Source: Sciscionella sediminilitoris (GTDB taxonomy: Bacteria; Actinomycetota; Actinomycetes; Mycobacteriales; Pseudonocardiaceae). Taken from it: DNA of 38,205 nucleotides. A model generated the notes under the pieces. The model was not told where the DNA came from and made no database searches. It worked only from the letters and a program-made list of their open reading frames with translations. Where the stretch lies: the NCBI RefSeq assembly GCF_000737195.2, contig NZ_JALM01000080.1:1-38205 (forward strand). The letters are read 5' to 3'. A program made the translations under genes and the position numbers. This document shows, in pieces, positions 4,648-32,332 of the stretch; position 1 is the first letter of the stretch, and each line of letters begins with the position of its first letter.

Positions 4648-4656
4648 TGCGCCGCC

Positions 4657-5769: not shown

Positions 5770-5940
5770 TCAGTCCTTTCTCGCGGGAGTCTCGTCTTGT
5801 TCGTGCGCGGAGAGATACGTACGCAACGCATCGGCAACCAGGGCCGAGAGCGAGAGCTCGGCTTCGATGGCGTGGTGTTTGACCTGCCTGATGAGCTCGA
5901 GCGGCAGGTAGACATTGAACTGTTTGACGTCCTCTCCCAT
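5770..5940 (-). CDS. Small ribbon-helix-helix (CopG/Arc-type) protein
   Basis: 56 aa, ATG at 5940 to TGA at 5770. The translation reads [20 protein letters not shown], then [20 protein letters not shown] and a polar tail. This is the standard RHH pattern: a short beta-strand with alternating polar residues (KQFNVYLP), then two helices separated by a LSLSALV turn. RHH dimers bind short palindromes through the strand. It lies 6 nt upstream of the VOC gene, divergently from the DHA2 exporter, and the divergent spacer contains palindromes that could be its operator. Autoregulation with control of the exporter is the likely job, by inference from layout. Confidence 0.8.
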
Positions 5941-6005: not shown

Positions 6006-7556
6006 ATGAACCGCCAATGGTGGACGCTCGTCGTGGTTTGCGCCGCGACGTTCATCCTGTTGCTCGATGTCACGATCGTCGTCGTTGCCCTGCCCAACAT
6101 CCAGCACGATCTGCAGGCGAGTTTCAGCGGCCTGCAGTGGTTCACCGATGCCTACGCGCTGACCCTCGCCTCGGTGCTGCTCACCACCGGATCGCTTGCC
6201 GACCGGTACGGAAGGCGGCTGCTGTTCCTCATCGGGCTCACCGTGTTCACCATCGGTTCGCTGCTGTGCGGTATCGCGGCCGATGAACTGATGTTGATCC
6301 TTTCCCGTGCCGTGCAAGGGATCGGCGCCTCGATCCTGTTCGCCACCTCGCTGGCCCTGCTGGCCAGTACCTTCGCTGGCAAGCAGCGCGGGATCGCGTT
6401 CGGGGTGTGGGGCGCGGTCGCCAGCGTGGCCACCGCGCTCGGCCCGCTGCTCGGCGGTGTGCTCACCACCGGAATCAGCTGGCGCGGGATCTTCCTGGTG
6501 AACCTGCCGATCGGCATCGTGGCGTTCCTCATCGCGCTGCGCAAGGTGGACGAGTCCCGCGCGCCGTACTCCAGCCGGATCGACTGGCCCGGCATGGCCA
6601 CCCTCACGGCCGGGTTGTTCGGGCTGGTGTACGCGCTGATCCGGGCCAGCGCCTCGGGCTGGGGCGATGCCGGGGTGCTGATCGCCTTCGTGCTCGCCGC
6701 GGTGTTCCTCATCGCCTTCGTGGTGGTCGAACTGCGGGTGTCCGCGCCGATGTTCGACCTGACGTTGTTACGGATCCCGACATTCCTCGGCGGCTCGATC
6801 GCCGCGTTCACCATGAACGCCTCGATGTTCGCGATGTTCCTGTACCTGGTGCTGTACCTGCAGAACGGTCTGTCCTTCAGCTCGCTGGACGCGGGGGTCC
6901 GGCTGCTGGTGGCCTCCGGCTGTACGTTCGTCGCCGCGACCGTGGCAGGCCGGTTCGTGAGCCAGATCCCGGCGCGCTGGCTGGTCGGCGGTGGACTGGT
7001 GCTCGTCGGCGCGGGCCTGTTGCTGATGCGCGGGCTGAGCGCGGACTCCTCATGGACCCACCTCATTCCCGGTCTGATCGTCTCCGGGATCGGCACCGGA
7101 ATGGTCAACCCACCGCTGGCCTCCACGGCGGTCGGGGTGGTGCCGGTACAGCGTTCCGGTATGGCCTCCGGGGTGAGCCAGACCTTCCGGCAGATCGGCA
7201 TGGCGGTCGGAATCGCCTTGTACGGCTCGATTTTCGCCTCCGCGCTGTACGGGAACCTGGTCGGCAGGCTGGCTGGGCTTCCCGGGCCGCACGCGAGCGC
7301 CGAGCAGATCGCCGAGGCGGTCCGCAAGGGAACTCCCGCGAACGCGATAGCGAACGCCGCACCACAGGCACCGGAGCAGCTGGCGGGTGCGGTGCAGGCG
7401 AGTTACCCGGCCGCGGTGAACGTCCTGCTGCTCACCAGCGGACTGCTGGCGATCGTCGGCGGGCTGCTCGCGCTGATCCTCATCCGTGGCAAGGATTTCG
7501 TACCTCCGGCCCAGCCCAGTTCCGCCGGATCCCAGCAGCGGGCCGCGACGGGTTAG
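6006..7556 (+). CDS. DHA2-family (EmrB/QacA, 14-TMS) MFS drug exporter
   Basis: 516 aa. The start is supported by GAGGAAGG at 5989-5996. It begins with a hydrophobic helix containing LDVTIVVVALPNI (DHA2 motif D1), followed by WFTDAYALTLASVLLTTGSL and ADRYGRR (MFS motif A), RAVQGIGAS (motif B region) and LGPLLGGVLT (motif C of antiporters). About 14 membrane helices can be counted, with a short polar tail. These are proton-driven exporters of cationic, aromatic or antibiotic compounds. It is divergent from the RHH-VOC pair and overlaps the convergent Lrp-type regulator by 4 bases at the 3' end. It is the obvious candidate for product export and self-resistance. Confidence 0.9.
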   Translation: MNRQWWTLVVVCAATFILLLDVTIVVVALPNIQHDLQASFSGLQWFTDAYALTLASVLLTTGSLADRYGRRLLFLIGLTVFTIGSLLCGIAADELMLILSRAVQGIGASILFATSLALLASTFAGKQRGIAFGVWGAVASVATALGPLLGGVLTTGISWRGIFLVNLPIGIVAFLIALRKVDESRAPYSSRIDWPGMATLTAGLFGLVYALIRASASGWGDAGVLIAFVLAAVFLIAFVVVELRVSAPMFDLTLLRIPTFLGGSIAAFTMNASMFAMFLYLVLYLQNGLSFSSLDAGVRLLVASGCTFVAATVAGRFVSQIPARWLVGGGLVLVGAGLLLMRGLSADSSWTHLIPGLIVSGIGTGMVNPPLASTAVGVVPVQRSGMASGVSQTFRQIGMAVGIALYGSIFASALYGNLVGRLAGLPGPHASAEQIAEAVRKGTPANAIANAAPQAPEQLAGAVQASYPAAVNVLLLTSGLLAIVGGLLALILIRGKDFVPPAQPSSAGSQQRAATG

Positions 7557-8518
7557 CTCATCAGCTCGGCGCCCGGGCCCTTGATCTGCCGGGTGATCAG
7601 TGAGGTCTCCACGGTCAGCACCCCGGGCAGCGCGCCGAGGCGGTGGGCGAGGTAGCCGTAACACGCGTCCAGATCCCGGTAGACGGTGAAGGCCACGATG
7701 TTCGCCGTGCCGCTCGTCGCCGCCGCGTAGGCCACCTCGATGTGCCCGGCGAGCGCCGCGGCGACCGCGTCGAGTTCCCCGGGCGCCACGGTCAGCCAGA
7801 GCACGGCCGTGCAGTCGTAGTCGAACCAGCCGGGGTCGATGTCCACGTCGTAGAAGAAGACCCCGCGCCGGTGCAGTTCGGTCAACCGCCTGCGCAGGGT
7901 GGATTCCGGTGTCCCGGTCAGCGCGGAGAGGGCGGGAAAGCCGGTACGCCCATCGACCGCGAGCGCACGCAGCAGCGCCTGATCGGCCGCGGTGATGCGC
8001 TCGGGCGGGCCGGGCTGTTCGGCGGGTTCGGGTTCCCGCAACCGCTCGATCTCCCCGGCCTCGAGCGCACCGAGCCTGCCGGGCCAGCCATGGGCACCCG
8101 CGAGATCGCGCAGCACGCAGTGCGCCGTGATCGCGTCGATCCGCGGGGTGCGGGACAGTTTCTCCAGCAGCAGGCTGCCCGAACCGGATTCGGCGTGCGC
8201 CATACAGGTCAGCTCGGTGCCACCGGAGGCGAGCGCGACCCAGGAGGTGTCCTCCCTGCGCGCCAGCGCCTGCGCGATCCGCGGCGCGGTGTCCGGGGCA
8301 CAGCGCAGCCGCACCAGCCAGTCGGCCCGGCCGAGCCTGCGCCGGTCCGGAACCGCGACCACGCGCATCCCGGCATCCCGCAGCCTGCGGTATCGCTGCG
8401 CGAGCGTGCGCTCCGAGCACCCCAGCACGGCGGCGATCCGGCGCAGCGGGGTCCGCCCGGCGATGGCCAGCGCGTGCAGGATCCGCCGGTCCAGCACGTC
8501 CAGCGTGATGTTTTCCAC
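7553..8518 (-). CDS. AsnC/Lrp-family transcriptional regulator, duplicated (HTH-RAM-HTH-RAM)
   Basis: 321 aa, about twice the length of a classical Lrp, with GTG start at 8518. The first half has an AsnC-type HTH (LDVLDRRILHALAIAGRTPL, residues about 5-50) and a ligand-binding alpha/beta domain. The second half repeats the plan: DQALLRALAVDGRTGFPALS, then a second helix-turn-helix around residues 172-225 and a RAM-like domain ending in SLITRQIKG. Such tandem Lrp proteins occur in actinomycetes and are often linked to secondary metabolism. It is divergent from the methyltransferase (84 bp apart) and probably controls genes of this cluster; the ligand could be an amino or aromatic acid. The target is inference. 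Confidence 0.85.
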   Translation of the reverse strand: MENITLDVLDRRILHALAIAGRTPLRRIAAVLGCSERTLAQRYRRLRDAGMRVVAVPDRRRLGRADWLVRLRCAPDTAPRIAQALARREDTSWVALASGGTELTCMAHAESGSGSLLLEKLSRTPRIDAITAHCVLRDLAGAHGWPGRLGALEAGEIERLREPEPAEQPGPPERITAADQALLRALAVDGRTGFPALSALTGTPESTLRRRLTELHRRGVFFYDVDIDPGWFDYDCTAVLWLTVAPGELDAVAAALAGHIEVAYAAATSGTANIVAFTVYRDLDACYGYLAHRLGALPGVLTVETSLITRQIKGPGAELMS

Positions 8519-8602: not shown

Positions 8603-9403
8603 ATGCAGAAAGACGAACTCGATCCGGTCGCGCACACCAGCAGGCTGACCGCCGCGATGCGCGCCGCCGAAAGCCGCAGGCCCGACGCGCTGTTCACCGA
8701 CCCGTTCGCCGAACGACTGGCCGGTGCCTCCGCACGGCAACTGGCCGAGGACTTCGACGGCGGGCCCACGATCCCGGTGCGCACCAGGTATTTCGACGAT
8801 GCGTTCGCCGAGCTGCGGCCGAGCCAGATCGTGGTGCTCGCCGCGGGCATGGACACCCGCGCGTTCCGGCTGGACTTCGCCCCCGGCACCACGCTGTTCG
8901 AACTCGACCGCCCGGCTGTGCTCGCCCACAAGGAGCGGGTCATCGACGCTCCGGCACGGTGCGAGCGCAACACCGTGGGCGTCGATCTGGCCACGGATTG
9001 GCGGGATCCCTTGCGTGCAGCGGGTTTCCAGGCCGACCGGCCGACCTGCTGGCTGGTCGAAGGGCTCACCCAGTACCTCGAGGAGTCCGCCGTGCTCACC
9101 CTGCTCGACCGGCTCACCGAGCTCAGCGCGCCGGGCAGCACCCTGCTGCTTGACGTGGTCGGGCGTTCGGTGCTGGAGGCGCACACGATGCGCGCGACGC
9201 TGGACTGGATGGCCGAGCACGGCGCACCGTGGCTGTTCGGCACCGAGGAACCGGAGGCGCTGCTGACCGCACGCGGCTGGGATCCCGAGGTGTCCCTGTT
9301 CAGCACGGTGGGCACCCGGCTGGGCCGCTGGCCGTACCCGGACGCGCCGCGGGGAACACCGGGTGTCCCGCACGGCTACCTTATCCGCGCGACACTGCGC
9401 TGA
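8603..9403 (+). CDS. SAM-dependent methyltransferase (LCM/PPM, TIGR00027-like)
   Basis: 266 aa. The sequence has DALFTDPFAERLAG near the N-terminus, IVVLAAGMDTRAFRL as the SAM-binding region, LFELDRPAVLAHK as the acidic strand-2 motif, and CWLVEGLTQYL after it, a signature order for the leucine carboxyl methyltransferase-like family that actinomycetes use for O-methylation of small molecules and carboxylates. ATG 8603 was chosen because homology begins just after it; an in-frame ATG at 8537 would add unrelated residues. The 3' end overlaps the convergent lyase gene by 23 bases. In this cluster it could methylate a phenol or carboxylate of the aromatic product, which is inference. Confidence 0.8.
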   Translation: MQKDELDPVAHTSRLTAAMRAAESRRPDALFTDPFAERLAGASARQLAEDFDGGPTIPVRTRYFDDAFAELRPSQIVVLAAGMDTRAFRLDFAPGTTLFELDRPAVLAHKERVIDAPARCERNTVGVDLATDWRDPLRAAGFQADRPTCWLVEGLTQYLEESAVLTLLDRLTELSAPGSTLLLDVVGRSVLEAHTMRATLDWMAEHGAPWLFGTEEPEALLTARGWDPEVSLFSTVGTRLGRWPYPDAPRGTPGVPHGYLIRATLR

Positions 9404-10796
9404 GCGGAACAGCGGCACGGCGCAGCTCCCGGTCGACCAGTGCGGCCGCGGCTCCGGTGTACTCGGCCGGATCGCACAACCGGTCCAGTTCTCCGGTCTC
9501 GATACACCCGGCGAGCTCGGACTCCCCGGCAAGCAGCTCGGCCAGTGGTTTCCCGGTCCGGCCCGCTTCCGCCGATGCCGCGCTCAGCAGCCGTTTGGCG
9601 GCGGCCTTCCCGATCCGCGGGGCCAGCACGGCCGCGATCCGCTCGGAAACCACCTGACTGCCGGTGATCCCGAGGTTGTCCCGCATCCGCTGCGGCCGCA
9701 CCTCGAGTCCCTCGGCCAGTTCGACCGCGGTGTGCGCGGCCCCACCGGTCAGCCGCAGGCATTCGCGCAACAACAACCATTCCGCGTGCCAGGCACCAGC
9801 CGAGCGTTCGTCCTCGGTGAGCAGGCACTGGGTCAGCCCGGTCGCGAGCGCCGGAACCTGCATCGCCGCACTGCGCAGCAAGGTGGCGAGCACCGGATTT
9901 CGCTTGTGTGGCATGGCCGAGGAACTGCCCCGCCCGTCCGCTCCCGGCTCGGCGAGCTCACCGACCTCGGTCCTGGCCAGCGACTGCACATCGAGCGCGA
10001 TCTTGCCGAGCGCCCCGGCGGTGCACGCCAGTGCCGAGGCGAGATCGGCCATCGGGGTGCGCAGTACGTGCCACGGCAGCACCGGGCGGGCCAGGCCGGT
10101 CTCCGCCGCGAACGCGCCGGCCAGCCGGTCGGTGTACTCACCCGGATCCGGATGTGGCTGCCCACCGTCGATCCCGGCGTATTCCAGGTACCCGGCCAGC
10201 GTTCCCGCCGCACCGCCGAGCGCGACCGGCAGCCCCTCGGCGAGCAACCGTGCCAGCCGGGCATCGGCGTCCAGGACGAGTTCCCGCCAGCCCGCCGCCT
10301 TCAGGCCGAACGTGGTGGGCACCGCGTGCAGGGCCAGGGTGCGCCCGGCGAGCACGGTGTCCCGGTGTTCGGCGGCGAGCCGGCCGATGGCGGTGGCCGT
10401 GGCGCCCAGATCGGCCCGGATGAGCCGGATCGCGCGCTGCGCGACCAGCATCGCGCCGGTGTCCAGGATGTCCTGGCTGGTGGATCCGCGGTGCACGTAT
10501 TCGGCGGCGGCCGCGTCCTCCTCGGACACCACCGCCGTGAACGCCTGCACCAGGCCCACCACCGGATTCGCGGTCGCCCGCGCGGCGATCGCCAGCGCCC
10601 GCAGATCGAGCCGTTCGGCCCGGGCCGCGCGGCTGATCACCGCGGCCACGTCCGGCGGCAGCGTGCCGAGCCGGGCCTGGGCCCTGGCCAGTGCGGCCTC
10701 GGCGTCGAGCATCGCCTGCAGCCATGCCGTATCGGAGACCGCCGCTTCGACCGGGGTCCCCGCCCGTACCGGGGAAAGCAGCCCGGAATCGATCAT
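9381..10796 (-). CDS. Aspartase/fumarase-superfamily lyase; candidate nitrosuccinate lyase (CreD-like)
   Basis: 471 aa. It has the superfamily signature SSAMPHKRNP (around residues 292-301) and the other active-site segments RGSTSQDILDTGA (103-115) and LALHAVPTTFG, placing it with 3-carboxy-cis,cis-muconate cycloisomerase, adenylosuccinate lyase and CreD. CreD-type lyases release nitrous acid and fumarate from nitrosuccinate. Its ATG overlaps the stop of the CreE-like flavoprotein gene (ATGA), and that pairing is the main reason for preferring the nitrosuccinate lyase role over a beta-ketoadipate or purine role. No other beta-ketoadipate or purine gene is in the window. It is the last gene of the seven-gene operon and overlaps the convergent methyltransferase end. 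Superfamily is certain; substrate is inferred from context. Confidence 0.8.
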   Translation of the reverse strand: MIDSGLLSPVRAGTPVEAAVSDTAWLQAMLDAEAALARAQARLGTLPPDVAAVISRAARAERLDLRALAIAARATANPVVGLVQAFTAVVSEEDAAAAEYVHRGSTSQDILDTGAMLVAQRAIRLIRADLGATATAIGRLAAEHRDTVLAGRTLALHAVPTTFGLKAAGWRELVLDADARLARLLAEGLPVALGGAAGTLAGYLEYAGIDGGQPHPDPGEYTDRLAGAFAAETGLARPVLPWHVLRTPMADLASALACTAGALGKIALDVQSLARTEVGELAEPGADGRGSSSAMPHKRNPVLATLLRSAAMQVPALATGLTQCLLTEDERSAGAWHAEWLLLRECLRLTGGAAHTAVELAEGLEVRPQRMRDNLGITGSQVVSERIAAVLAPRIGKAAAKRLLSAASAEAGRTGKPLAELLAGESELAGCIETGELDRLCDPAEYTGAAAALVDRELRRAAVPLSAVSRG

Positions 10797-12745
10797 ACGA
10801 TCACACCCATCAGCCGGGTGCCCTCCACCGCGGGCCGCCGGATCGGGGTAGCGGTCGGCATGTCCAGGATGGTCCGGGCTATCGCATCGGAGTCCCCGAG
10901 GGTGACCGAGTCGACCCCCGGCCGGATCCCGGCGGCGGTGACCCAGTGCACCGCCTCGGTCGGCACCCCGTACGCGAACCGGCGCGGATGCGCGCGGTCC
11001 TGGGTGTCGACAAGGCGATAAGGGCGTTCGGTGACCGCGAGTCCGCCGGTTTCGTAGGTTTCCCCGGCCGCGCCGGGGATCCGGTAGGTGCGGCACTGTT
11101 CGGTGGCCAGCAGGTGCCGCATCAGCGGATCGGCGGTGCGCCGCAGATCCGGTTCCGGCAACCGCGCCTCGATCAGCACCTCGGCCCGGATCGGCGGGCC
11201 GGGCACGATCCCGGACTGGGCCACGAATGCGGGATCCTCGGTGTCGATGCAGATCTGGGTTCCGGGCCCGGTGATCTCCAGGATGCCCGCCTCGATCAGG
11301 GCGATCATCTCCTCGATCCTGGACACCGGCGGCCCGATGGAGAGGAATGCGTTGAGCGGGGTGTACCACGCGTCCAGCTCGTCCTGATGCGAATCACCGG
11401 CCAGGCCACCGTGATCCACCACGAGCCGGATCTCGTTGCGCAGATCGCGCAACACATCCAGCGCGGCCTTGAGCGGTCCGTCCACATTGCCCGCCTTGGC
11501 CTCCCGGACATCCCGGGCCAGATAGTCCAGCAGCCAGGCGCGGAACTCGGCCCGATCGGCGAATTCCAGTCCCTGACAGGGATGCGCGATCCGGTCCCAG
11601 TCCCAGCGTTCGGCTGGCGCGATGCGGTAGGTGTCCAGCAGCAGGTCTTCGTCCCGGTCCCCCGATGCGGACAGATAGCGCCGCACGAACGGCTCGGGAT
11701 CCTCGCCCCGGGAGCGCAACAACGCGCCGTAGTAGACGCTTTCCACTTCCAGCGCGATCAGCGGCCACACGTCGGCGCCGAAGCGAACCCCCGCGCGCTC
11801 GCGCAGCCGGGCGATCACTTCCGGGGTGAGCAGCCGGGGACGGTACCGGCCGAAGGCGCCCTTCTGGTTCTCCCCGCGCGCGTGGTACGGCACCCCGCGG
11901 CGGGAACTGGCGTACAGCACGGGTTCCCGCCCAGACGGCCGGTACCGTAACCGGTCCCCTTCGCGGACAAAGGACCCGCCGCGGCCCACCGTGAACAACG
12001 CCATGTGGTCGAAGAAGTTCAGGCCGAGGCCGCGCAACAGCACCGGACGGCCCGCTTCGATCGCGCTCAGTTCCAGATCGGCGGGATTGGCGGGCGGAAC
12101 ATAGGTGAGCAGATGGATCCGCGCCAGGCTCGCCGTCCGTTCCTCGCGCGCGGAAAGCCGCGCGGGCAGGTGCCCCTGGGCCAGCACCACCGCGTCCAGT
12201 TCGTGCAACCGGGTACCGTCCTCGAGGCGAACTCCTTGTGGGCCACCGGCGATCCCGTTGGTGTCCGCCATCGCCACGGCACGCGAGCGATGCACCGCGA
12301 TCGTGACGTGTTCGGGTGCGCGTGCCACGATCTGCTGGAAGGAGTCGTTCAGGTAGCGGCCGTAGAAGGCGCGAGTGGGATACGAGTCCGGGCCAAGACT
12401 CCGCGCCTCGGCAAGCGTTTCCGCCTCGTATTCGCCCAGTTCACCCAGCAGTGCCAGGCTTTTCGCCCACTCGTACAGGCTCGGACCTGGCTCCACCGGC
12501 CCCTCGATCCGTGCGCTGTCATCGGTGTAGACGGTGATCTGGGCGGCCACCGTATTGGTGAGCAGATACCGGGACTGTTCGGCGCGCCACACCGCTCCGG
12601 AACCGGGAGCGGACGGATCCACGATGTGCACCGTGATCGTCTCGTGGGTGGCCGCGGCGCGTTCATTGGCGCACAACCGCTCCACAATGGACAGTCCGCG
12701 GGGACCGGCACCGATGACGCAGATCTCGAGGTGACCGGGTCTCAT
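10793..12745 (-). CDS. FAD/NAD(P)-binding flavoprotein; candidate L-aspartate N-monooxygenase (CreE-like)
   Basis: 650 aa. The N-terminus EICVIGAGPRGLSIVERL is a dinucleotide-binding motif of the FAD-NAD(P)-binding (PF13454-like) group. Further on are 'VWRAEQSRYLLTNTVAAQ', the cofactor-proximal VVLAQGHLPA and LLRGLGLNFFDH, a typical block of this large family. CreE/FzmM-type enzymes, which oxidise the amino group of aspartate to nitrosuccinate, are as far as I recall of this size and family. The gene is coupled to PhzE upstream and to the CreD-like lyase downstream by ATGA overlaps, so the two nitrite genes are made together with the 3-hydroxyanthranilate genes. Many members of the family are uncharacterised, so the reaction is inference from pairing. 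Confidence 0.75.
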   Translation of the reverse strand: MRPGHLEICVIGAGPRGLSIVERLCANERAAATHETITVHIVDPSAPGSGAVWRAEQSRYLLTNTVAAQITVYTDDSARIEGPVEPGPSLYEWAKSLALLGELGEYEAETLAEARSLGPDSYPTRAFYGRYLNDSFQQIVARAPEHVTIAVHRSRAVAMADTNGIAGGPQGVRLEDGTRLHELDAVVLAQGHLPARLSAREERTASLARIHLLTYVPPANPADLELSAIEAGRPVLLRGLGLNFFDHMALFTVGRGGSFVREGDRLRYRPSGREPVLYASSRRGVPYHARGENQKGAFGRYRPRLLTPEVIARLRERAGVRFGADVWPLIALEVESVYYGALLRSRGEDPEPFVRRYLSASGDRDEDLLLDTYRIAPAERWDWDRIAHPCQGLEFADRAEFRAWLLDYLARDVREAKAGNVDGPLKAALDVLRDLRNEIRLVVDHGGLAGDSHQDELDAWYTPLNAFLSIGPPVSRIEEMIALIEAGILEITGPGTQICIDTEDPAFVAQSGIVPGPPIRAEVLIEARLPEPDLRRTADPLMRHLLATEQCRTYRIPGAAGETYETGGLAVTERPYRLVDTQDRAHPRRFAYGVPTEAVHWVTAAGIRPGVDSVTLGDSDAIARTILDMPTATPIRRPAVEGTRLMGVIV

Positions 12746-14622
12746 CTGGCCACCCCGTTCGCGATGAGCTCCGCGATCCGCGCGCCGAGGATGCGGACCC
12801 CGTCCTTGGTGAGCACCGATTCGGCATGGAACTGCAGCGAGGCGAAAAACGGCGCGCGGAGTGCGTGTACCTCGCCGGATTCGGCGTCCCTGCTCACCTC
12901 GACCACGCCGAGCGGTCCGCAGTCGACCTTGTCCTCGGTGCACCGCGCGGCGAAGGTGTTGTAGAAGCCGACCAGTTCGCGCGCGCCGAACAGGTCGATC
13001 TCGCGCTGCAACCCCTGATTCGGCACATCCTTGCGGAGCAATGGGAACCCGAGCCGCCTGCTGAGCACCTGATGGCTCAGGCACACCGCGAGGAACGGGA
13101 GACGGCGCTCGAGCAGGGTGCCGATCGCCGAGCTGAGGTGCGCGATCTTGGGATGCTCGGGATCCCGCGGATCGCCGGGCCCCGGCCCCATCACGACCAG
13201 ATCGTGGCCGTCCAGGAAATACGGTTCGTCGAACCGGCACACGGTGACCTCGAGCCCCATGGACCGCAGCTGGTGATCGAGCATCGAGGTGAAGGTGTCC
13301 TCGGCGTCGACCACCAGCACCCGGCGACCGGCAAGTTCGGCTCGCGGCCACGCGCGGTTTTCCTCGCTGTGCTGCCAGAAACCGGCGAGCGTCGCATTGC
13401 GGTCCCGGAGCGCGGCCCGCACACTCGGATGCTCGGCGAACCGCTGCGGCTGCTCGGCGCGCAGCGCGGCGAGCAGCCCGGCCGCCTTCGCCTTGGTCTC
13501 CGCGACCTCGGATTCCGCTTCGGAATGCCGGACCAGGGTGGCGCCGACCCCGATCCGGATCCGCCCGGTGGCGCCGATGTCCGCGGCGCGTATCAGGATC
13601 GAGGAGTCCAGGCAGCGGTTTCCCCGCTCGTCCCGCCCGATCAGCGCGATCACCCCGCTGTAGTAACCGCGGCCCTGCGGTTCATAGCGGGCGATCACCC
13701 GGCACGCGCTCTCCAGCGGGCTGCCGGTGACGGTGGGCGCGAACATGGTCTCGCGCAGGATCTCGCGCGGATCGCGTTCGCTGTGCCCGAGGATGAAGTA
13801 CTCGGTGTGCGCGAGGCGAGCCATCTCCTTCAGCCGCGGCCCGACCACCCGTCCGCCGTGCTCGCAGATCCGGGCCATCATCTTCAGTTCCTCGTCCACG
13901 ACCATGTACAGCTCGTCGGTTTCCTTGCGGTCGGCCAGGAAATCCAGCACCGCGGGCAGGCTCGGACCCGACGGCGGATAGCGATAGGTGCCGCTGATCG
14001 GGTTCATCACCGCGGTTCCCTCGTGCAGGCTCACGTGCCGTTCGGGCGTCGCGCCCACGAAGGTCCGGTCACCGGTGTGTGCGATGAACGTCCAGTAGGC
14101 GCCCGTTTCCCTGGTCAGCAACCGGCGGAAGAAGGAGAGCGCTTGCCCTGTGGTGTACCCGGTGATGTCGGCGAGGAACGAGCGTTTGATCACGAAGTTC
14201 GCGCCCTCGCCCTCGCCGATCTCCCGGTCGATGATCGCGCCGACGGTCTCCGCATAGGTCTCGTCGGCCACGTCGAATTCCTCGCCGGTCAGGCTGATCG
14301 GCAGGTCCGGGAGCCGGGCGAGGCCGTGTTCCAGTGGAATCGTGTCCTGCTCGGTGACGGTCATCGTGATCAGCGGCTCGCCGTCGTCGGCGCACGCGTA
14401 GCCGCGCTCGGTGATCTGCCGATAGGGCACGATGGCCAGTACCTCGTGGCCCGCGCCGGAAGCACCGTCCGGCAACGCGATCTCGGCCAGCGTGTCCACC
14501 GTGGACGTCTCGCCGAGCAGGATCTCCAGCCTCGGTTCCGTGTTCCGCTCCGGGCGATACAACAGGGCGAACGGGGGCGGATCCGGTGCCAGTGCCCGGT
14601 CGAGCAACTCGACCTGATTCAT
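12742..14622 (-). CDS. phzE: 2-amino-2-desoxyisochorismate (ADIC) synthase, PhzE-type
   Basis: 626 aa, close to PhzE length. The N-terminal two thirds are a chorismate-binding (MST) domain with [28 protein letters not shown] and [20 protein letters not shown]. The C-terminal third is a class I glutamine amidotransferase with the nucleophile Cys in FLAVCLSHQ and the His-Glu pair in LQFHAES. It converts chorismate plus glutamine-derived ammonia to ADIC. The fused MST-GATase order is also found in some anthranilate synthases, but the directly coupled PhzD gene upstream (ATGA at 14619-14622) supports ADIC as the released product. It overlaps the CreE-like gene downstream in the same way. Confidence 0.92.
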
Positions 14623-15242
14623 GGCAGCACCTCTTTCGCGGTGGTCACCACCGCGCAGCGCTGCGCGGCGTAGTCGATGGCGAGCCGGTGATACCGCGCG
14701 GAGAAGTCCGCGATGGCATCCGCGACCAGGAAGGTCTCGATGTCGTTGGTGAACGCCTCGACCGCGGTCATCAGCACACCGACATGCGCGTACACGCCGC
14801 ACAGCACCAGCTGGTCCCGGCCGAGGGTACGCATCCGGGCCAGCAGATCGGAACCGAAAAACGCGCTGTAGCGCCATTTCACGAAGGTCCAGTCGTCCTC
14901 GGCGGGAGTGAGCGCGTCGACCACCTCGCGGTCCGCGGGCGCCACCCGCATGCCCGGCCCCCAGAAGTCCTTGAGCAGGCCACGTTGCCGTTCGGTCATC
15001 CCGCCGGGCTGCGCGGTGTAGCCGACCGGGACACCGAGCGAAGCACACCGCGCGCGCAATACGGCGATGTTCGAGACCAGTTCCTCGCGCAGGCCACCGG
15101 GCAGGGGGCGCACGAAGAACCGTTGCATATCGTGCACGAGCAGCACCGCGCGGTCCGGATCGGCGGACCATCCGGCGATGTTCTCCGGCAGGTCGCCTGC
15201 GGCCGGCATCGAGTACGGCTCGATCGTGGGGATTCCTGCCAT
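14619..15242 (-). CDS. phzD: Isochorismatase-type ADIC hydrolase, PhzD-type
   Basis: 207 aa. Very close in pattern to Pseudomonas Phz[14 protein letters not shown] at the start, [13 protein letters not shown] with the catalytic Asp at residue 38, [23 protein letters not shown] with the active-site Lys just before it, [10 protein letters not shown] and [16 protein letters not shown]. It removes pyruvate from ADIC to give trans-2,3-dihydro-3-hydroxyanthranilic acid (DHHA). ATG 15242 is preferred over an upstream ATG at 15281 because it matches the PhzD N-terminus and follows GGAGGAG by 5 nt. It is third after the DAHP synthase and the SDR dehydrogenase (28-nt gap) and is coupled to PhzE downstream. 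Confidence 0.93.
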
Positions 15243-15270
15243 GGGGCTCCTCCGGGAATTCAGGGGAATA

Positions 15271-16023
15271 TCAACTGCCAAGGGTCGCTCCGCCGTCCAC
15301 GGTCAGTTCGTGCATGGTGATGTGGCTCGCCCGTGCGGAGAGCAGGAAGGTCACCGCGTTCGCGATATCGGCGGGCGCGGCGATCCTGCCGAGCGGAATA
15401 CCGAGCCGGTAGGTGTCCAGGCTGCCCCGGACGGTGGTCTTGGGGCCGGACTCGTCGTGCCACATCGAGCTGAGCATCGGGCTGTCGGTGGAGCCGGGCG
15501 CCACCACATTGCACCGGATGCCGTGCCCGGCCAGTTCGAGGCCGAGACACTTGGTGAACATCGTGGCCGCCGCCTTGGACGCGGCATAGGCGGCCATCTC
15601 CAGTCGCGGGGTGCTCGCCGCATTGGATGCCACGGTCACGATCGCGCCCCGGGAACGCTGCATCATCCGCACGGCGACCGCGCGGGAGAGGTGGAAGACA
15701 CCGGTGGTGTTGACCGCGAAGGTAGTGTGCCAGTCCTGCTCGGTCAGTTTGGTCGCCTCACCGAGCCGCAGCACACCGGCCGCGTTCACCAGATACTCGA
15801 CCGGGCCGAGCCGGTCCTCGATCGCCGCCACCGTGTCCGCCACCTGACCGGAATCGCTGACATCGGCGGGAAACCCGGTCACTCCCGCTCCCGCGATCGC
15901 CGCCAGCCCCTCCGGATCCCGGTCCACCGCGGCGACCACCGCCCCGCGTTCCCGCAACGCGCGCACCACCTCGGCGCCGATCCCACCGGCCGCGCCACTG
16001 ACCACCGCGACCTCGTGTTCCAT
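15271..16023 (-). CDS. SDR dehydrogenase, EntA-type; probable DHHA to 3-hydroxyanthranilate dehydrogenase
   Basis: 250 aa classical short-chain dehydrogenase: [11 protein letters not shown] (cofactor loop), NAAGV (about 80-84), catalytic Ser133 and Y146-AAS-K150, and the C-terminal [13 protein letters not shown] typical of the 2,3-dihydro-2,3-dihydroxybenzoate dehydrogenase (EntA/DhbA) branch. By analogy it oxidises DHHA with NAD+ to 3-hydroxyanthranilic acid, the aromatising step known from calcimycin- and benzoxazole-type clusters. The ATG at 16023 has AGGAGG 8 nt upstream; an upstream GTG would overlap that element. It lies directly between DAHP synthase (16-nt gap) and PhzD. Family is sure; the exact substrate follows from its neighbours. 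Confidence 0.87.
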
Positions 16024-16039
16024 CAGGCACACCTCCTCG

Positions 16040-17242
16040 TCACCCCAGCCACGCCGAAACCACCCGCAGCGCCTGGCGCGGATTGAGCCGTGGATCGCAG
16101 AAGCTGGTGTACTTGTCTCCGACGTGTTCGATCTGCGCCGCGGTCGGCACGCACTCGGTCACCTCGTCGGGTGTGGTCTCCAGATGCAACCCGCCGGCGA
16201 CCCCGCCCGCGGAGCGCACCGCGACCTGGAACTGCCGCACCTCGCTCATCACCGTGCGCAGGAACCGGGTCTTCAGCCCGTCCGCGGTCTTGACCGTGTT
16301 GCCGTGCATGGGATCGCTGAGCCAGATCACCGGATGTCCCGCCGCCCGGACCGCTCCGACCAGCGGCGGCAGCATCCGCGCCACCTGCGCCTCGCCCATC
16401 CGCGCGATCAGGGTGAGCCTGCCCGGCTCGCGATCCGGGTCCAGCCGCTCGCAGACGGCGAGCAGATCGTCCCTTGTCATGCCCGGCCCCACCTTGCACG
16501 CCACCGGATTGGCCACCCTCGCGAGCAGCGCCACGTGTGCGCCGTCCACCTGGCGGGTGCGGTCGCCGATCCACGGCAGATGCGTGGACGTGAGCAGCAG
16601 ATCACCACGAACATCGCGGCGCAGCAGGGGAATCTCGTAGTCCAGCACCAGGGCCTCGTGACTGGTCCACACCGGAGCGAGCAACCGCGCACCGCCGGTT
16701 CCCGAACCCCAGCCCAGATGCCCGAGCACCTCGCCGGAGGCCTGATAGGCCGACATCATCCGGTCCGGATCGGCCTTGCGCAGTTCCGGATCGGGCTCCG
16801 GCGCATTGACCAGATGCCCGCGGTACACCGGAAGTTCCCGGCCGCCGACCCGTTCGACCGGGGCCGACCGGGGTTTGGCGAACTGGCCGCCGATGCGCCC
16901 GATCCGCACCACCGGTTTGTGCGTGGCCAGCATCAGCGCACCGGCCAGCAGCTCCAGCACCCCGACCTTGCGGGCCACGTAGCCGCGAGTGCACTCCGCC
17001 GGGTCCTCCGCGCAGTCGCCCGCCTGCACCGCGACCGCCTCGCCGAGGCTCACCGCGGCGAGCAGCGCGCGCAGGTTGCGCACATCCTCGGCACGCACCA
17101 GCGGTTCGGCGAACCCCAGTTGTTCGCCGATCTGCCTGGCCCGCACCGGGTCGTGCCACGGCGGCTGCTGCTGAGCCGGTATCCGCCGCAGGTCGGTCAC
17201 CGCACTGTCCACTGTGGTCTCCTGACTCGGTGTCCCGGTCAT
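16040..17242 (-). CDS. phzC: Class II 3-deoxy-D-arabino-heptulosonate-7-phosphate (DAHP) synthase, PhzC-type
   Basis: 400 aa. Class II DAHP synthase motifs are clear: AVQAGDCAEDPAECT with the metal-ligand Cys77, RIGRIGGQFAKPRS, and WLSDPMHGNTVKT followed by LHLETTPDEVTEC. It condenses PEP and erythrose-4-phosphate at the entry of the shikimate pathway. It is roughly 60 residues shorter than housekeeping class II enzymes such as that of Mycobacterium tuberculosis, lacking the N-terminal extension linked to allosteric control. Short PhzC-type enzymes are associated with secondary metabolism and weak feedback inhibition. The ATG at 17242 overlaps the esterase stop (ATGA), which fixes the start. 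It would boost chorismate supply for PhzE. Confidence 0.93.
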   Translation of the reverse strand: MTGTPSQETTVDSAVTDLRRIPAQQQPPWHDPVRARQIGEQLGFAEPLVRAEDVRNLRALLAAVSLGEAVAVQAGDCAEDPAECTRGYVARKVGVLELLAGALMLATHKPVVRIGRIGGQFAKPRSAPVERVGGRELPVYRGHLVNAPEPDPELRKADPDRMMSAYQASGEVLGHLGWGSGTGGARLLAPVWTSHEALVLDYEIPLLRRDVRGDLLLTSTHLPWIGDRTRQVDGAHVALLARVANPVACKVGPGMTRDDLLAVCERLDPDREPGRLTLIARMGEAQVARMLPPLVGAVRAAGHPVIWLSDPMHGNTVKTADGLKTRFLRTVMSEVRQFQVAVRSAGGVAGGLHLETTPDEVTECVPTAAQIEHVGDKYTSFCDPRLNPRQALRVVSAWLG

Positions 17243-18882
17243 GGTCTCGGTACCCATCCGGCGCTGTCCCAGAACCGGAGCTGACGCAGTTTCGGCGTGG
17301 TCGCGATGCGCGCCACCGTTTCGCCGCCGAGGATCATCGTGCTCGGCAGTTGCGGATCGAACAGGGGCAGCGCTGGTGCACCACTGGCCCGCGGCACACC
17401 GGTCCACGCGAAATTCGCGACCAGGTCCATGAACACGCCGGAGATCCTGCGCTCGAGCGGGCCGTCGCCGAATTTCGCCACGTTCCCGGGAATCCCGTTG
17501 GTGCCGAACAGGAACGGGGAGGTCGCCTCGTGCGGGGTGCCGAAGTACGGCGGCCGCACCGGATGCGCGAACTCCATGGCATAGAACGGGGTCCGGCCAT
17601 GGCGCGCGTGCCGTTCGGCGAGCCGGACGATCTGGTAGCGGAACAGCCCATCGCCCCACACCTCGGTCCAGATCGAGAGCGGATCGGTGGGCAGTCCGTC
17701 CGCCACCGCCGCCGCACGGTAAGCGGAGACGCAGGCATCGACCTGTGCGTTGGTGACCCGCACCGCGCCCTTGTCCAGAAAGGCGTGCACGCAGTCGTGC
17801 AGTTCGGCATCGTTCGCAGGCGCCGGGCGCGGATCCGGAACCGGAGCGCCCGGGGCGGTGTAGAACGAACCCTCGGTGTCCGCGTGGATACTGAACACCG
17901 GGATCCGCGGGTTCGGCGCCTGGTACTCGAATTCCGGCAGCCAGCGCCCGCCCCGCACCGGTCCGCGGTATTCCCGCCCGCTGCGCACGATCCGCGCGGT
18001 CGGGCTGCCGGCGAACACCGATTCCCAGACCCGCTGGAGCTCGGCGGGCGAGACCGAACGCAGTCCGCGCACCGTGGTGTCCAGCCGGCGCGCCATCGTC
18101 CGGTAGACGGTGCGCGCGTCCTCCGGGGTCAGGGTGTTCGCCGGATTCCAGACATGGCACGGACTGATCGGCACCATCCGGCGGACGATCCCCCGCAGTT
18201 CCGGCAGAATGCCGAGCTGCCAGGTGCTCGCACCACCCGCCGAGGTACCGACGAGCGTGATGTTGTCCGGGTCCCCGCCGAAGGCGCCCGCGTTCCGCTT
18301 CACCCAGCGCAGCAGCGCGGCCTGATCCTGCAGTCCCCAGTTCGCGTTGCTTCCGGTCACCGGGTCGGCCAGTTCCTCGTGGTGACCGAAACCGAACGGA
18401 CCCAGCCGGTAGTTGAAGGTCACCACCACCAGGTCACCGCGCTCGGCGAGCCGCGCCCCGTCGTAGGTCGGTTCACTGCCCGCGCCGAGCAGCCAGCCAC
18501 CGCCGTGGATGTAGACCAGAACCGGCCGCTTCCCCTCGGTGTCCGGGGTCCATACGTTGGCGTACAACGAATCCTCGCTGCCGCCCGGCAGAATCAACTG
18601 GTACGAGGGTGCGGCGAAGCTGGTGGCGTCCCGCACTCCGGACCACGGCACCGGCGGCCGCGGCGAGGCGAACCGTAAGGCACCGACCGGTGGCTGTGCG
18701 TACGGCACCCCGCGAAAGATCGCCAGCGAACCGCTGCGCTGCCCGGCGACCCGGCCGGAACTGGTGTGTGCCACCACCTTTCCGGCCGCGGCGACGCCAC
18801 CGGGCCGGGCCGGCGCCTGGCTGCTCGCCGCCGCAGAGATGGCCGCGCCGGTGGCACCGGCGAGAAAAGTTCGTCTCTGCAT
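17239..18882 (-). CDS. Type B carboxylesterase with Tat-like signal peptide
   Basis: 547 aa. The N-terminus MQRRTFLAGATGAAISAAAS has a twin arginine, a hydrophobic stretch and an Ala-rich cleavage region, so export by Tat is likely. The mature part is a carboxylesterase/para-nitrobenzyl-esterase-type alpha/beta hydrolase: IFRGVPYAQPPVGALRF, YIHGGGW (oxyanion hole, about 124-130), and the nucleophile elbow GTSAGG with Ser214. The ATG at 18882 has AAGGGGAG 8 nt upstream; an upstream in-frame start at 18927 would bury the signal. It is the first gene of the seven-gene operon and is coupled to DAHP synthase. A secreted esterase in a biosynthetic operon could activate or trim an exported product; this is inference. 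Confidence 0.88.
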   Translation of the reverse strand: MQRRTFLAGATGAAISAAASSQAPARPGGVAAAGKVVAHTSSGRVAGQRSGSLAIFRGVPYAQPPVGALRFASPRPPVPWSGVRDATSFAAPSYQLILPGGSEDSLYANVWTPDTEGKRPVLVYIHGGGWLLGAGSEPTYDGARLAERGDLVVVTFNYRLGPFGFGHHEELADPVTGSNANWGLQDQAALLRWVKRNAGAFGGDPDNITLVGTSAGGASTWQLGILPELRGIVRRMVPISPCHVWNPANTLTPEDARTVYRTMARRLDTTVRGLRSVSPAELQRVWESVFAGSPTARIVRSGREYRGPVRGGRWLPEFEYQAPNPRIPVFSIHADTEGSFYTAPGAPVPDPRPAPANDAELHDCVHAFLDKGAVRVTNAQVDACVSAYRAAAVADGLPTDPLSIWTEVWGDGLFRYQIVRLAERHARHGRTPFYAMEFAHPVRPPYFGTPHEATSPFLFGTNGIPGNVAKFGDGPLERRISGVFMDLVANFAWTGVPRASGAPALPLFDPQLPSTMILGGETVARIATTPKLRQLRFWDSAGWVPRP

Positions 18883-19169: not shown

Positions 19170-21023
19170 ATGTGCGGTATGACCGGCTGGATCGGCTTCC
19201 AGCACGACCTGACCAAGTGTTCCGCGACGATCGAGGCCATGACCGAGACCATGGCCTGCCGGGGCCCGGACGACACCGGGAGCTATCTGGCCCGGCACGT
19301 GTCGTTCGGGCACCGCAGGCTTTCGGTGATCGACCTCGAAGGCGGCAGCCAGCCCATGACCGCCGAGCACGACGGGGAAACCGAGGCGGTCATCGTCTAC
19401 ACCGGCGAGGTGTACAACTTCCGCGAACTGCGCGCGGAATTGCGCAGGCGCGGTCACCACTTCCGCACCGAGAGCGACACCGAGGTGGTGTTGCGCGCCT
19501 ACCTGGAATGGGGCGAGGAATTCGCCGAACGGCTGAACGGGATGTACGCCTTCGCGATCTGGGACGCGCGCACCGAGGAACTGCTGCTGGTGCGCGACCG
19601 GATGGGCGTGAAGCCGCTGTACTACTACCCGACCGCGGACGGTCTGCTTTTCGGTTCGGAGCCGAAGGCGATCCTCGCGCATCCCGAGGTGCGCGCGGTG
19701 GTCGGGGCGGACGGCATCCGGGAGATGTTCGGCATCGTGAAGACGCCGGGACACGCGGTGTTCGAAGGCATGTACGAGGTCCGGCCGGGAACCCTGATCC
19801 GGGTATCGCGCACCGGACTGCGCACCACGACCTACTGGCAGCTCGAGGCCGCACCGCACACCGATGACCTGGAAACGACCATCGGCACGGTGCGCGATCT
19901 GTTGTCCGACATCGTCGAGCGGCAGCTGTTCGCCGATGTTCCGGTCGGCACCCTGCTTTCCGGCGGGCTGGACTCCAGCGCGGTCACCGCACTGGCCGCG
20001 CGCACCATCGCCGGGCAGCGATCGAACGAGCCGCTTCGTGCCTACTCCATCGACTTCACCGGCCACGACGATCGGTTCGAGGCGAACATCCAGTGGGCCG
20101 ATCCGGACACCCCGTTCGCCGTCGAGGTCGCCGAGTACACCGGGGCCGAACACGTACACGTCCTGCTGAACAACGCCGATCTGCTGGACCCGAAGGTGCG
20201 CCGGGCCGCGCTGCACGCACAGGACTTCCCGGTGTCCGCCGGTGACATGGAGTACTCGCTTCTGTTGCTGTGCAAGGCATTGCGCAAACACGTCACGGTG
20301 GCGCTCTCCGGTGAGGCTGCCGACGAACTGTTCGGCGGCTACACCTGGTTCCACGACCGGGAGGCGATCGACACCGACACCTTCCCGTGGCACACCCCGT
20401 TCCGCAACGGCGGCGGGATCGACGCGTGGCGCGCGGTCGGGCTGTGGGACCGGCTGGAGTTCACCGACTACATCAAGCACCGCTACGACGAAGCGCTCGC
20501 CGAGGTACCTCGGCTGGACGGGGAATCCAGCACCGAAGCCAGGATGCGCGAGCTCAGCTATCTCAACCTGACCCGGTGGGAACGCTGGCTGCTCGACCGC
20601 AAGGACCGGATCAGCATGGCGGTCGGGCTCGAGGTCCGGGTGCCGTTCTGCGATCACCGGCTGGTCGAGTACGTGTTCAACGCGCCCTGGTCGATGAAGA
20701 GCTTCGACGGCCGGGAGAAGAGCCTGCTGCGCGCCGCCATGCGCGGACTGCTGCCGGAATCCGTGCTGGAGCGCAAGAAGAGCCCTTATCCGTCCACACA
20801 GGACCTGAGCTACGAGCGCGCGCTGCGGGCGAAGCTGTCCGAACTGCTCGCCGCGGACGCGCCGGTGCGGGAACTGGTGTCCGCGGCCGAGATCCGCACA
20901 CTGCTCGACGTTCCGGAAGGGTCTTACCGGGTCGGCGGACTGTGGACCGCGCGATCGGTTCCGGAACGCCTGATCGAGTTCGACAACTGGGTGGCCGACT
21001 ACGACGTGACCGTCCGGCTCTGA
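19170..21023 (+). CDS. AsnB-type glutamine-dependent amidotransferase (asparagine synthetase family)
   Basis: 617 aa. The start MCGMTGW supplies the N-terminal Cys nucleophile of class II glutamine amidotransferases after Met removal, followed by CRGPDD, GHRRLSVIDL and ESDTEVVLRA. The synthetase half has the pyrophosphate loop SGGLDSS at 264-270 and LSGEAADELFGGY. Canonical family members have NGE at the oxyanion position of the glutaminase site; here it reads YTGEVYN, a variant whose effect is unclear. It activates a carboxylate as its adenylate and forms an amide. As a lone gene facing the seven-gene operon across a repeat-rich spacer, it probably amidates the cluster's aromatic or amino acid rather than serving general asparagine supply. 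The acceptor is unknown. Confidence 0.9.
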   Translation: MCGMTGWIGFQHDLTKCSATIEAMTETMACRGPDDTGSYLARHVSFGHRRLSVIDLEGGSQPMTAEHDGETEAVIVYTGEVYNFRELRAELRRRGHHFRTESDTEVVLRAYLEWGEEFAERLNGMYAFAIWDARTEELLLVRDRMGVKPLYYYPTADGLLFGSEPKAILAHPEVRAVVGADGIREMFGIVKTPGHAVFEGMYEVRPGTLIRVSRTGLRTTTYWQLEAAPHTDDLETTIGTVRDLLSDIVERQLFADVPVGTLLSGGLDSSAVTALAARTIAGQRSNEPLRAYSIDFTGHDDRFEANIQWADPDTPFAVEVAEYTGAEHVHVLLNNADLLDPKVRRAALHAQDFPVSAGDMEYSLLLLCKALRKHVTVALSGEAADELFGGYTWFHDREAIDTDTFPWHTPFRNGGGIDAWRAVGLWDRLEFTDYIKHRYDEALAEVPRLDGESSTEARMRELSYLNLTRWERWLLDRKDRISMAVGLEVRVPFCDHRLVEYVFNAPWSMKSFDGREKSLLRAAMRGLLPESVLERKKSPYPSTQDLSYERALRAKLSELLAADAPVRELVSAAEIRTLLDVPEGSYRVGGLWTARSVPERLIEFDNWVADYDVTVRL

Positions 21024-21038: not shown

Positions 21039-21929
21039 TCAGCCGAGCAGTTCGCGGACGGCGGGCACGACCTGACCGGCGAACCGCTCCACCTGCCCGA
21101 GTTCCTGGCGCTCGGGCCAGAAAACGAAGCTGCGGAAGGGTTGCTCGGTGGCCAGCCGGGCGATCAGCCGCGCCCACTGTCCGGCGGTGCCACGGATCGG
21201 CGCCGAACCCTGCCTGGCCTCCGCATCGCCCTCGGTATCGGTGATGGTGCCCACCAGCTGGGACATCCGCAGCACATCCGCGGGATCCCGGCCGGCCGCG
21301 AGCGCCGCCTCGTCGAGGATCGCGTTCGCGTTCGCCCACTTCTCGTAGGGCAGATAGGCCGGGATCGGCGCGGCCCAGCCCTCCGCGATCCGCCCGGTGA
21401 GCCGCAGCGAACGCGGCCCCTGCGCGCCGATCCAGATGCCGATCGGATGCGCGGGCGCCGGTCCCGCCTGAGCCCCGTCCAGGCTGTAGTACTTGCCGCG
21501 GAGCCCGACGGTGCCGCCCGGCCGCCACAGCGCGCGCAGGATCTGCACGGCCTCCTCGAGCGCGTCCAGCGCGTCGGCCGGGCTGAGCCGGTCGACGCCG
21601 AGGGTGGTGATCGCGTCCCAGTAGCCACCGGCCCCGATGCCGAGCTCGAACCGCCCGCCGGAGAGCAGATCCAGGCTGCTCGCGGTCTTGGCGAGCAGGG
21701 CGGGCGGGCGCAGCGGCAGCGTCACCACATCCGGGAAGAACCGCAGCCGATCGGTCCGCGCCAGCATGGTCGCGATCAGGCTCATGGTGTCCACGAACGC
21801 CGGTACGTACGGATGATCCTGCACGCCGACCAGATCGAGCCCGCCCTCCTCGGCCGCCGAGACGAGATCCTCGTGCAGGGCCAGATCGACCGAGGGGGAA
21901 AGGGAGAAACCGAATTCCAGTTCTGCCAT
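21039..21929 (-). CDS. Luciferase-like (LLM class) flavin/F420-dependent oxidoreductase
   Basis: 296 aa. LLM features include the N-terminal FGFSLSPS strand, LVGVQDHPYVP, RFFPDVVTLPLRPPALLAK, SGGRFELGIGAGGYWDA and IWIGAQGPRSLRLTGRIAEGW, a pattern shared by actinobacterial F420- or FMN-dependent oxidoreductases. Whether it uses F420H2 or FMNH2 cannot be told. ATG 21929 follows GGAAAAGG; an ATG at 21941 and a GTG at 21950 (overlapping the stop of the upstream transposase-like gene) are alternatives, the last implying coupling. It is convergent with AsnB and downstream of the transposase-like gene, so it is likely a tailoring redox enzyme of the cluster, by position only. Confidence 0.85.
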   Translation of the reverse strand: MAELEFGFSLSPSVDLALHEDLVSAAEEGGLDLVGVQDHPYVPAFVDTMSLIATMLARTDRLRFFPDVVTLPLRPPALLAKTASSLDLLSGGRFELGIGAGGYWDAITTLGVDRLSPADALDALEEAVQILRALWRPGGTVGLRGKYYSLDGAQAGPAPAHPIGIWIGAQGPRSLRLTGRIAEGWAAPIPAYLPYEKWANANAILDEAALAAGRDPADVLRMSQLVGTITDTEGDAEARQGSAPIRGTAGQWARLIARLATEQPFRSFVFWPERQELGQVERFAGQVVPAVRELLG

Positions 21930-21946
21930 GGCCTTTTCCATCACCG

Positions 21947-24616: not shown

Positions 24617-24678
24617 GTCACTCCTTCGCACTGCCGACCCGGTGCCACTGCCCACCGGACTCGAGGTCCGCGAATCGA

Positions 24679-25473: not shown

Positions 25474-25485
25474 GGTGAAGACTCC

Positions 25486-30798: not shown

Positions 30799-30820
30799 GA
30801 CTGTTGCTCCTCGATCAGTT

Positions 30821-32306: not shown

Positions 32307-32332
32307 AGGCAGGAAAAATCGCGCGAAGTGGC

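Follow-up and report, generated by a model that had tools for sequence, protein, structure and literature searches.

A Sciscionella gene cluster joining 3-hydroxyanthranilate and nitrite synthesis, with a predicted aryl diazo product

Introduction

Does a bacterial gene cluster that joins genes for an aromatic amine with genes for nitrite bring the two together in an aryl diazo compound? The question is raised by contig NZ_JALM01000080.1 of Sciscionella sediminilitoris, here called the window, which is the whole contig of 38,205 bases in a genome of 7.42 Mb and 215 contigs. The original prediction, made from this DNA alone, had placed a coupled operon at 9381-18882, with genes for 3-hydroxyanthranilate (3-HAA) next to CreE- and CreD-like genes for nitrite, and had suggested that the amine would be diazotised. 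Gene-level evidence matters for such pathways, since the high reactivity of aryl diazo metabolites means that they often escape isolation. We describe here the gene content, synteny, family membership and retained catalytic residues of the cluster, with families assigned by sequence comparison with Pfam, NCBIfam and the PDB. Our reading, to which we give a probability of about 0.78, is that the cluster makes an aryl diazo species from 3-HAA, with nitrite made alongside.

Results

The operon was found as predicted, with all seven genes on the minus strand and running from 18882 to 9381 in the order carboxylesterase (Est), DAHP synthase (DAHPS), short-chain dehydrogenase/reductase (SDR), PhzD, PhzE, CreE and CreD; the families that had been named also stood, and the seventh gene, previously left unnamed, encodes the carboxylesterase. 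The genes are tightly coupled, with 4-base ATGA overlaps at the PhzD/PhzE, PhzE/CreE and CreE/CreD junctions, an Est/DAHPS overlap of 19 bases that depends on the start chosen, and gaps of only 16 and 28 bases at the two non-overlapping junctions. CreE and PhzE are each present in one copy in the genome. The same order from DAHPS to CreD, in one direction and with PhzE and CreE overlapping, occurs in Embleya hyalina (L084); it recurs in locus L091 with one additional gene between PhzE and CreE, and in L096 with that extra gene and no SDR called. Because of this recurrence we regard the gene order as more than chance, and since the joined order is found in L084 we rejected the idea that the operon is a contig artefact. 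The whole cluster is wider than the operon, at about 1870-23161 (~21 kb), and a candidate diazotase, its partner protein, a ring hydroxylase and further tailoring genes had been overlooked in the earlier account of its contents.

The assignment of DAHP synthase, SDR, PhzD and PhzE to the 3-HAA half of the pathway was borne out by these comparisons. The class II DAHP synthase (16040-17257, minus strand) matched Pfam DAHP_synth_2 with 424 bits and TIGR01358 with 397 bits, the latter below its cut-off of 614.7. The DhbA-type SDR (15271-16023, minus), predicted to convert 2,3-dihydro-3-hydroxyanthranilate (DHHA) to 3-HAA, exceeded the cut-offs of two 2,3-dihydro-2,3-dihydroxybenzoate dehydrogenase models (TIGR04316, 338 bits against 300; NF006074, 336 bits against 312). 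The predicted hydrolase PhzD (14619-15242, minus), which would form DHHA from 2-amino-2-deoxyisochorismate (ADIC), matched PhzD structure 1nf9 with E 6.9e-93, and D38 and K122 of 1nf9, which we take to be the catalytic residues, align with identical residues. The predicted ADIC synthase PhzE (12742-14622, minus) matched PhzE structure 3r74 (E 1.1e-218), its sole PDB match at E <= 1e-30. All three families of the PhzE/PhzD/DhbA-type SDR route are thus present, a combination described as leading to 3-HAA in PMC9323291, citing calcimycin and limazepine work, and also in PMC5958127 (here and below, the cited articles are drawn on in part). A phenazine cluster was considered and rejected, with PhzE in single copy and no phzF/phzG-type gene turning up in the window scans, beyond which no further search for such genes was made.

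The nitrite half was supported as well. The CreE-type aspartate N-hydroxylase (10793-12745, minus) had the aspartate N-hydroxylase 8cp2/8cp5 as its only PDB match at E <= 0.01 (E 4.2e-203, 59% identity), and retained 10 of the 11 aspartate-site and entrance-site residues, comprising the aspartate-binding Arg/Asn cluster and the entrance residues published in PMC10404684; the one exception is R597, which falls at the alignment's end and is replaced by Asp. The CreD-type nitrosuccinate lyase (9381-10796, minus) reached 786 bits on NF052556 (cut-off 650) and matched CreD structure 5xny with E 6.7e-177 and 72% identity across 406 aligned positions, with all 16 published positions retained. Grouping of either protein with families unrelated to nitrite, such as muconate cycloisomerases, had been named in advance as the outcome that would overturn the prediction, and neither protein showed it, given the single PDB match of CreE and the NF052556 score of CreD. 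We rejected the identity of CreD as a muconate cycloisomerase on these model scores: it reached only 391 bits on PcaB model NF006554 (cut-off 595), and two PcaB-like relatives gave only 338 and 397 bits on NF052556. Its identity to muconate cycloisomerase 1re5 is 43%. An 89-row tree places the window CreD beside CreE-linked lyases of loci L114 (genome G117) and L112 (genome G218), at unstarred support of 91/81 and 88/84 with the bootstrap unsettled and one outgroup row (L197) being a mis-called open reading frame.

What would join nitrite to the amine? The diazotisation idea itself held up, although the joining enzyme does not lie inside the operon; a candidate was found outside it, at 3073-5199, as a pair of minus-strand genes. 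The first (3073-4647; Pfam AMP-binding) encodes an adenylating enzyme of the ANL superfamily and putative ATP-dependent arylamine diazotase of the CreM/Pzm18 type. It fell in a starred 24-row clade (99/95) with L071_1217, the Pzm18 orthologue of S. halstedii locus L071, to which it is 74% identical, in a tree where that orthologue, itself only a putative diazotase, represents the CreM type in place of CreM. By these comparisons the window enzyme is a Pzm18 orthologue, and Pzm18 has been called a CreM homologue with 48% identity to CreM (PMC9323291). On NF058622, the model for the 3-aminoavenalumate diazotase AvaA6, the window enzyme scored 70 bits against a cut-off of 975 and so does not count as AvaA6-type, and a PDB search for a solved CreM returned only Tri17 (9bq0/8tf7) and distant ligases. 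The gene families, together with the clade of the ANL enzyme, support the view that the two halves of the pathway meet in a diazotisation.

The second gene of the pair (4657-5199) encodes an SRPBCC/START-fold protein that is a constant neighbour of the ANL enzyme. Its structural model (predicted local distance difference test, pLDDT, 93.4) best resembled START and aromatase/cyclase folds, and the fold searches with this model returned that common fold with no function indicated. The association of the two was assessed gene by gene over CreE loci, using 80 loci around CreE relatives and 16 stretches from genomes of the family, which made 93 loci after L117, L119 and L120 were dropped as repeats of L046, L057 and L062. 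An ANL homologue was present in 48 of these 93 loci, an SRPBCC homologue in 45 and both in 40, being adjacent on one strand in 39. From this pattern the START-fold protein is likely to be an unrecognised partner in diazotisation. The protein has many invariant residues, including Y28, D33, R36, W40, S41, E43, C44 and H128. L071 (2956-4530), L042, L033, L062, L065, L053 and L074 carry an additional ANL paralogue with 52-62% identity to the window enzyme, which may act as another diazotase or as an acyl ligase.

The same enzyme also bears on an alternative in which the cluster has two independent outputs, with nitrite used for N-nitrosation or signalling and 3-HAA converted to a benzoxazole, phenoxazinone or amide by the ANL protein as an acyl ligase. 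Acyl ligases do rank first among the models for the ANL enzyme, there is a 3-HAA cluster (L206) that includes ANL and in whose stretch neither CreE nor CreD was found, and the arrangements in G218 and G117 described below show that the modules can be unlinked. However, the CreE and PhzE genes of the window share 4 bases, and ANL and SRPBCC repeatedly accompany CreE at its loci, and we consider two separate outputs highly improbable.

For the joined pathway, we infer every reaction in this organism, the role of the diazotase, the order of the steps and the product. DAHP synthase would raise the flow through the shikimate pathway, and PhzE, PhzD and the SDR would then take chorismate through ADIC and DHHA to 3-HAA. 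CreE would oxidise L-aspartate to nitrosuccinate, from which CreD would release fumarate and nitrite. The ANL enzyme would use ATP to activate nitrite and would diazotise the aromatic amine, while the START-fold protein would either bind the substrate or protect the diazonium. A flavoprotein encoded at 1870-3057 (minus) would hydroxylate the ring para to its hydroxyl; the methyltransferase, AsnB, luciferase-like oxidoreductase and esterase described below would tailor or release the product, and an MFS protein would export it. On the gene content, we would expect a diazo compound or quinone diazide that derives from 3-HAA and carries a further hydroxyl group, and the simple ortho-quinone diazide of 3-HAA is also possible.

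The flavoprotein is an FAD-dependent aromatic hydroxylase resembling 3-hydroxybenzoate 6-monooxygenase, with 450.9 bits on NF006021, just below the cut-off of 459, and with 4bjy ('probable salicylate monooxygenase') as its best PDB match (E 1.3e-65); homologues of at least 35% identity occur in 19 of the 93 CreE loci. Its score, within about 8 bits of that cut-off, could be taken to mean that diazotised 3-HAA loses N2 to give 3-hydroxybenzoate, which the hydroxylase then turns into gentisate or a derivative, and such removal of an aryl amine has been established for CmaA6 and AvaA7 (PMC10777205). Yet 3-HAA is already a 3-hydroxybenzoate, so the hydroxylase fits without any deamination, and the scanned window proteins included no recognisable NAD(P)-dependent denitrifying enzyme of its own, only the DhbA-type SDR. 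We therefore find deamination by way of the diazonium quite improbable.

Relatives of a 3-HAA cluster with CreE are common. Genes for 3-HAA (PhzE and at least one more) lie within about 10 kb of CreE in 20 of the 93 loci. A further 30 genomes were chosen by hand, mostly for loci having an ANL or SRPBCC homologue and no full 3-HAA set in the stretch, but also including L038, with a partial PhzE at the edge, and L047, with neither an ANL nor an SRPBCC homologue; a PhzE relative was present in all 30, and in 18 it shared a contig with CreE at a distance of 9-33 kb. A CreE match was found in 227 of 390 family genomes, from which we draw no prevalence because many of the matches belong to a clade with 36-41% identity and no assigned role. 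The sole other genome of the genus that was examined had no CreE match at E <= 1e-50.

The nearest syntenic cluster lies on the single contig of genome G218, with identities to the window proteins of 63% for DDE, 78% for the luciferase-like oxidoreductase, 71% for Est, 74% for DAHPS, 75% for SDR, 79% for PhzD, 75% for PhzE, 72% for SRPBCC, 78% for ANL and 74% for the hydroxylase. In G117 (L114), CreD, CreE, the hydroxylase, ANL, SRPBCC and AsnB stand together, with PhzE, PhzD and DAHPS elsewhere.

Several observations weigh against a joined diazo pathway. No CreE or CreD was found within the G218 syntenic cluster, and PhzE of G117 lies 3.8 Mb from CreE. No linkage of PhzE and CreE was seen in 12 of the 30 further genomes, namely in G117, where they are unlinked, and in 11 where they are on different contigs and linkage is not judgeable, several of the CreE contigs being short. 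Models of fatty-acyl-CoA ligases give the ANL enzyme higher scores than the AvaA6 model does, so that this enzyme could load a carboxylate instead. Finally, the 'nitrating' fingerprint (E49/H118/D125/H253/R341 with the loop SSxMPxKRNP; PMC13411527), of which all residues and loop positions are retained in the window CreD, is common to muconate cycloisomerase 1re5 but for one residue: 14 of the 15 tested positions are identical, and the sole difference is Leu154, which is Trp in 1re5. As 1re5 has it too, the fingerprint does not tell lyase and cycloisomerase apart, and it was not used as proof.

The unlinked arrangements can also be viewed in another way. Loci having CreE but no CreD found nearby numbered nine in the family (L046, L057, L062, L111, L113, L115, L116, L118 and L122), and all eight genomes concerned had a CreD relative at 56-71% elsewhere, at a distance of 26 kb in G216 and 53 kb in G086 and G096. 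Taken together, G218, G117 and these CreE-only loci show that the arylamine, diazotase and nitrite modules are separable, with the window as a joined form. The G218 CreE/CreD pair that is nearest to that of the window (69% and 70%) was seen as a stand-alone pair 4.8 Mb from the 3-HAA/diazotase cluster (L112; G218:C1:10267500-10287400), between a glycosidase-like gene and treS/maltokinase-like genes, where the treS gene reached 968 bits on TIGR02456 (cut-off 678) and the maltokinase-like gene remained below its cut-off. This pair may supply nitrite in trans; a further CreE of G218 lies in another 3-HAA cluster (L111).

At the right end of the cluster, a minus-strand gene at 21947-23161 encodes an IS701-like protein (NF033540, 303 bits, cut-off 150) that is the sole PF13546 match in the whole genome. 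None of six inverted repeat pairs brackets the gene, and the column of the first catalytic Asp holds Arg. That Asp is likewise absent from all 20 homologues at CreE loci and from 28 of 29 family hits, with the second catalytic Asp mostly retained, whereas Asp occupies the column in 13 of the 21 alignable rows obtained from 29 loci of relatives with PF13546 matches, a set of rows that itself includes one of the degenerate type. At E <= 1e-40, 65 of 386 family genomes have a homologue. The gene is present in 18 of the 93 CreE loci and in 12 of the 20 that have 3-HAA genes, and at 14 family places away from CreE, chosen by hand and not at random, 3-HAA genes lay within 10 kb in eight and not in six, one of the latter (L215) having an ANL and a hydroxylase gene near the contig edge. 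In S. poonensis (L041:18839-20267) and S. varsoviensis (L050:19697-21718) the protein is fused to an N-terminal part, presumably StrR-like, for which Pfam and NCBIfam gave no family, and which is 40% and 46% identical, respectively, to a free-standing protein beside the G117 3-HAA genes (L223). The simplest reading of these comparisons is that the gene product is probably a regulator of 3-HAA gene sets. We found no treatment of IS701 or domesticated transposases as regulators among the titles and abstract openings searched.

Left of the operon on the plus strand, a SAM-dependent methyltransferase of the LCM type, resembling carboxyl methyltransferases (8603-9403; Pfam LCM; TIGR00027, 207 bits, cut-off 93.6) has no homologue among the 93 CreE loci, and an MFS exporter (6006-7556; Pfam MFS_1) has homologues of 68% in L041 and 62% in L050. 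Between them on the minus strand lies an Lrp/AsnC-type regulator (7553-8518; Pfam HTH_AsnC-type and AsnC_trans_reg), again with no homologue in the 93 loci. Two small minus-strand genes precede the exporter, one for a protein that is VOC-like by eye and has no Pfam family (5422-5763; 71% homologue in L041) and one for a ribbon-helix-helix protein (5770-5940; RHH_1, 24.0 bits, cut-off 20.5; 78% homologue in L041), so that S. poonensis shares homologues of both and of the exporter; pzm21 is likewise annotated as VOC (PMC9323291). The carboxylesterase that opens the operon (17239-18882, minus; Pfam COesterase) has a counterpart of 71% identity at the corresponding position in G218. To the right, an AsnB-type amidotransferase (19170-21023, plus; TIGR01536, 508 bits, cut-off 267) has a 73% homologue beside the CreD, CreE and ANL genes of G117, the sole one in the 93 loci, and a luciferase-like (LLM, F420-type) oxidoreductase (21039-21950, minus; Pfam Bac_luciferase, with the best NCBIfam model, TIGR03619, below cut-off) has its 78% homologue in the G218 cluster.

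Immediately beyond the right end of the cluster, at 23558-26229, are genes for an AAT-type acyltransferase/hydrolase, a thymidylate synthase and a dienelactone hydrolase, which probably lie outside it because the first two have no homologue in the 93 CreE loci. The stretch 26271-37448, with mannitol dehydrogenase, enolase-superfamily, M24 peptidase, class III aminotransferase and FMO-like genes and, by eye, a sugar transporter and two regulators of the IclR type, resembles a catabolic locus.

Discussion

The cluster described here belongs to a broad family of 3-HAA-linked nitrite clusters, for which we found one in-silico product assignment in print. The comparison also yields a ready test set for the function of the diazotase and its START-fold partner, and G218 and G117 provide natural cases in which nitrite or arylamine supply lies outside the cluster. 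If the IS701-like protein is indeed a regulator, many 'transposase' genes inside biosynthetic clusters need re-examination, and such proteins could be used for waking silent clusters. A more far-reaching proposal, which we offer only tentatively and regard as doubtful in its entirety, is that the product is an undescribed light-labile 3-HAA quinone diazide, hydroxylated para to the phenol and amidated or methylated, that the cluster is activated by a former transposase, an IS701-family protein which lost its first catalytic Asp and settled as the regular companion of actinobacterial 3-HAA gene sets, and that the three modules are shuffled between genomes and can work in trans, the window being a fully joined form.

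Among known systems, the cremeomycin (cre) cluster shares CreD, CreE and an ANL-type diazotase with the window, but its arylamine is 3-amino-2-hydroxy-4-methoxybenzoate and not 3-HAA (PMC11705231). In the tasikamide (aha) cluster the CreD, CreE and CreM homologues Aha1, Aha2 and Aha11 act on an anthranilate, as proposed for the window, but the arylamine there is an alkyl 5-hydroxyanthranilate (PMC11705231). The ava and cma clusters for avenalumic and p-coumaric acid also combine nitrite from CreD/CreE homologues with an ANL diazotase, and differ in using 3-amino-4-hydroxybenzoate (3,4-AHBA) as arylamine, a type II polyketide synthase and a reductive loss of N2 (PMC10777205).

The closest published system comes from Streptomyces sp. 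SCSIO 40020, whose pzm cluster was assigned in silico in 2022 to penzonemycins A and B, with homologues of DAHP synthase, PhzE, PhzD and SDR proposed to form a 3-HAA core and homologues of CreD, CreE and CreM proposed for the diazo step (PMC9323291). A review repeats this proposal and says that experimental confirmation is lacking (PMC11705231). The suggestion that no compound of exactly this origin had been described is therefore withdrawn, since pzm already joins the same two gene sets; a second 3-HAA and nitrite cluster was not found in the literature, in a search that left most subscription journals outside. Locus L071 is the pzm cluster by its gene order and by its gene sizes, of which 10 of 15 are identical to those published; the remaining five differ by start choice or are cut, one of them at the locus end. 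The two clusters have in common DAHP synthase, PhzE, PhzD, SDR, CreD, CreE, the CreM-type ANL enzyme, SRPBCC and the 'transposase' Pzm10, with 50-74% identity between the window proteins and their L071 orthologues; pzm4 is also annotated as an F420-dependent oxidoreductase.

This orthology of the core genes raises the alternative of a hydrazone route as for penzonemycin, in which the amine of 3-HAA is retained, a second ring nitrogen, which AsnB could perhaps supply, is diazotised, and the diazonium couples with a carbonyl partner. We judge it unlikely, as the pzm scheme is itself bioinformatic and, whereas pzm has an acetolactate synthase, an N-acetyltransferase, a second acyl ligase and a SARP regulator that are listed for pzm only, neither acetolactate synthase nor N-acetyltransferase was present among the Pfam-scanned window proteins, five predicted window-end genes excepted. 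The window in turn adds the flavin hydroxylase, LCM methyltransferase, AsnB, LLM oxidoreductase, esterase and Lrp regulator. Unlike pzm, it also has CreE and CreD fused into the PhzE operon. With the acetyltransferase and acetolactate synthase of pzm missing from that set and tailoring genes added, diazotisation of 3-HAA in the window is likely to lead to a diazo-derived product different from that of pzm.

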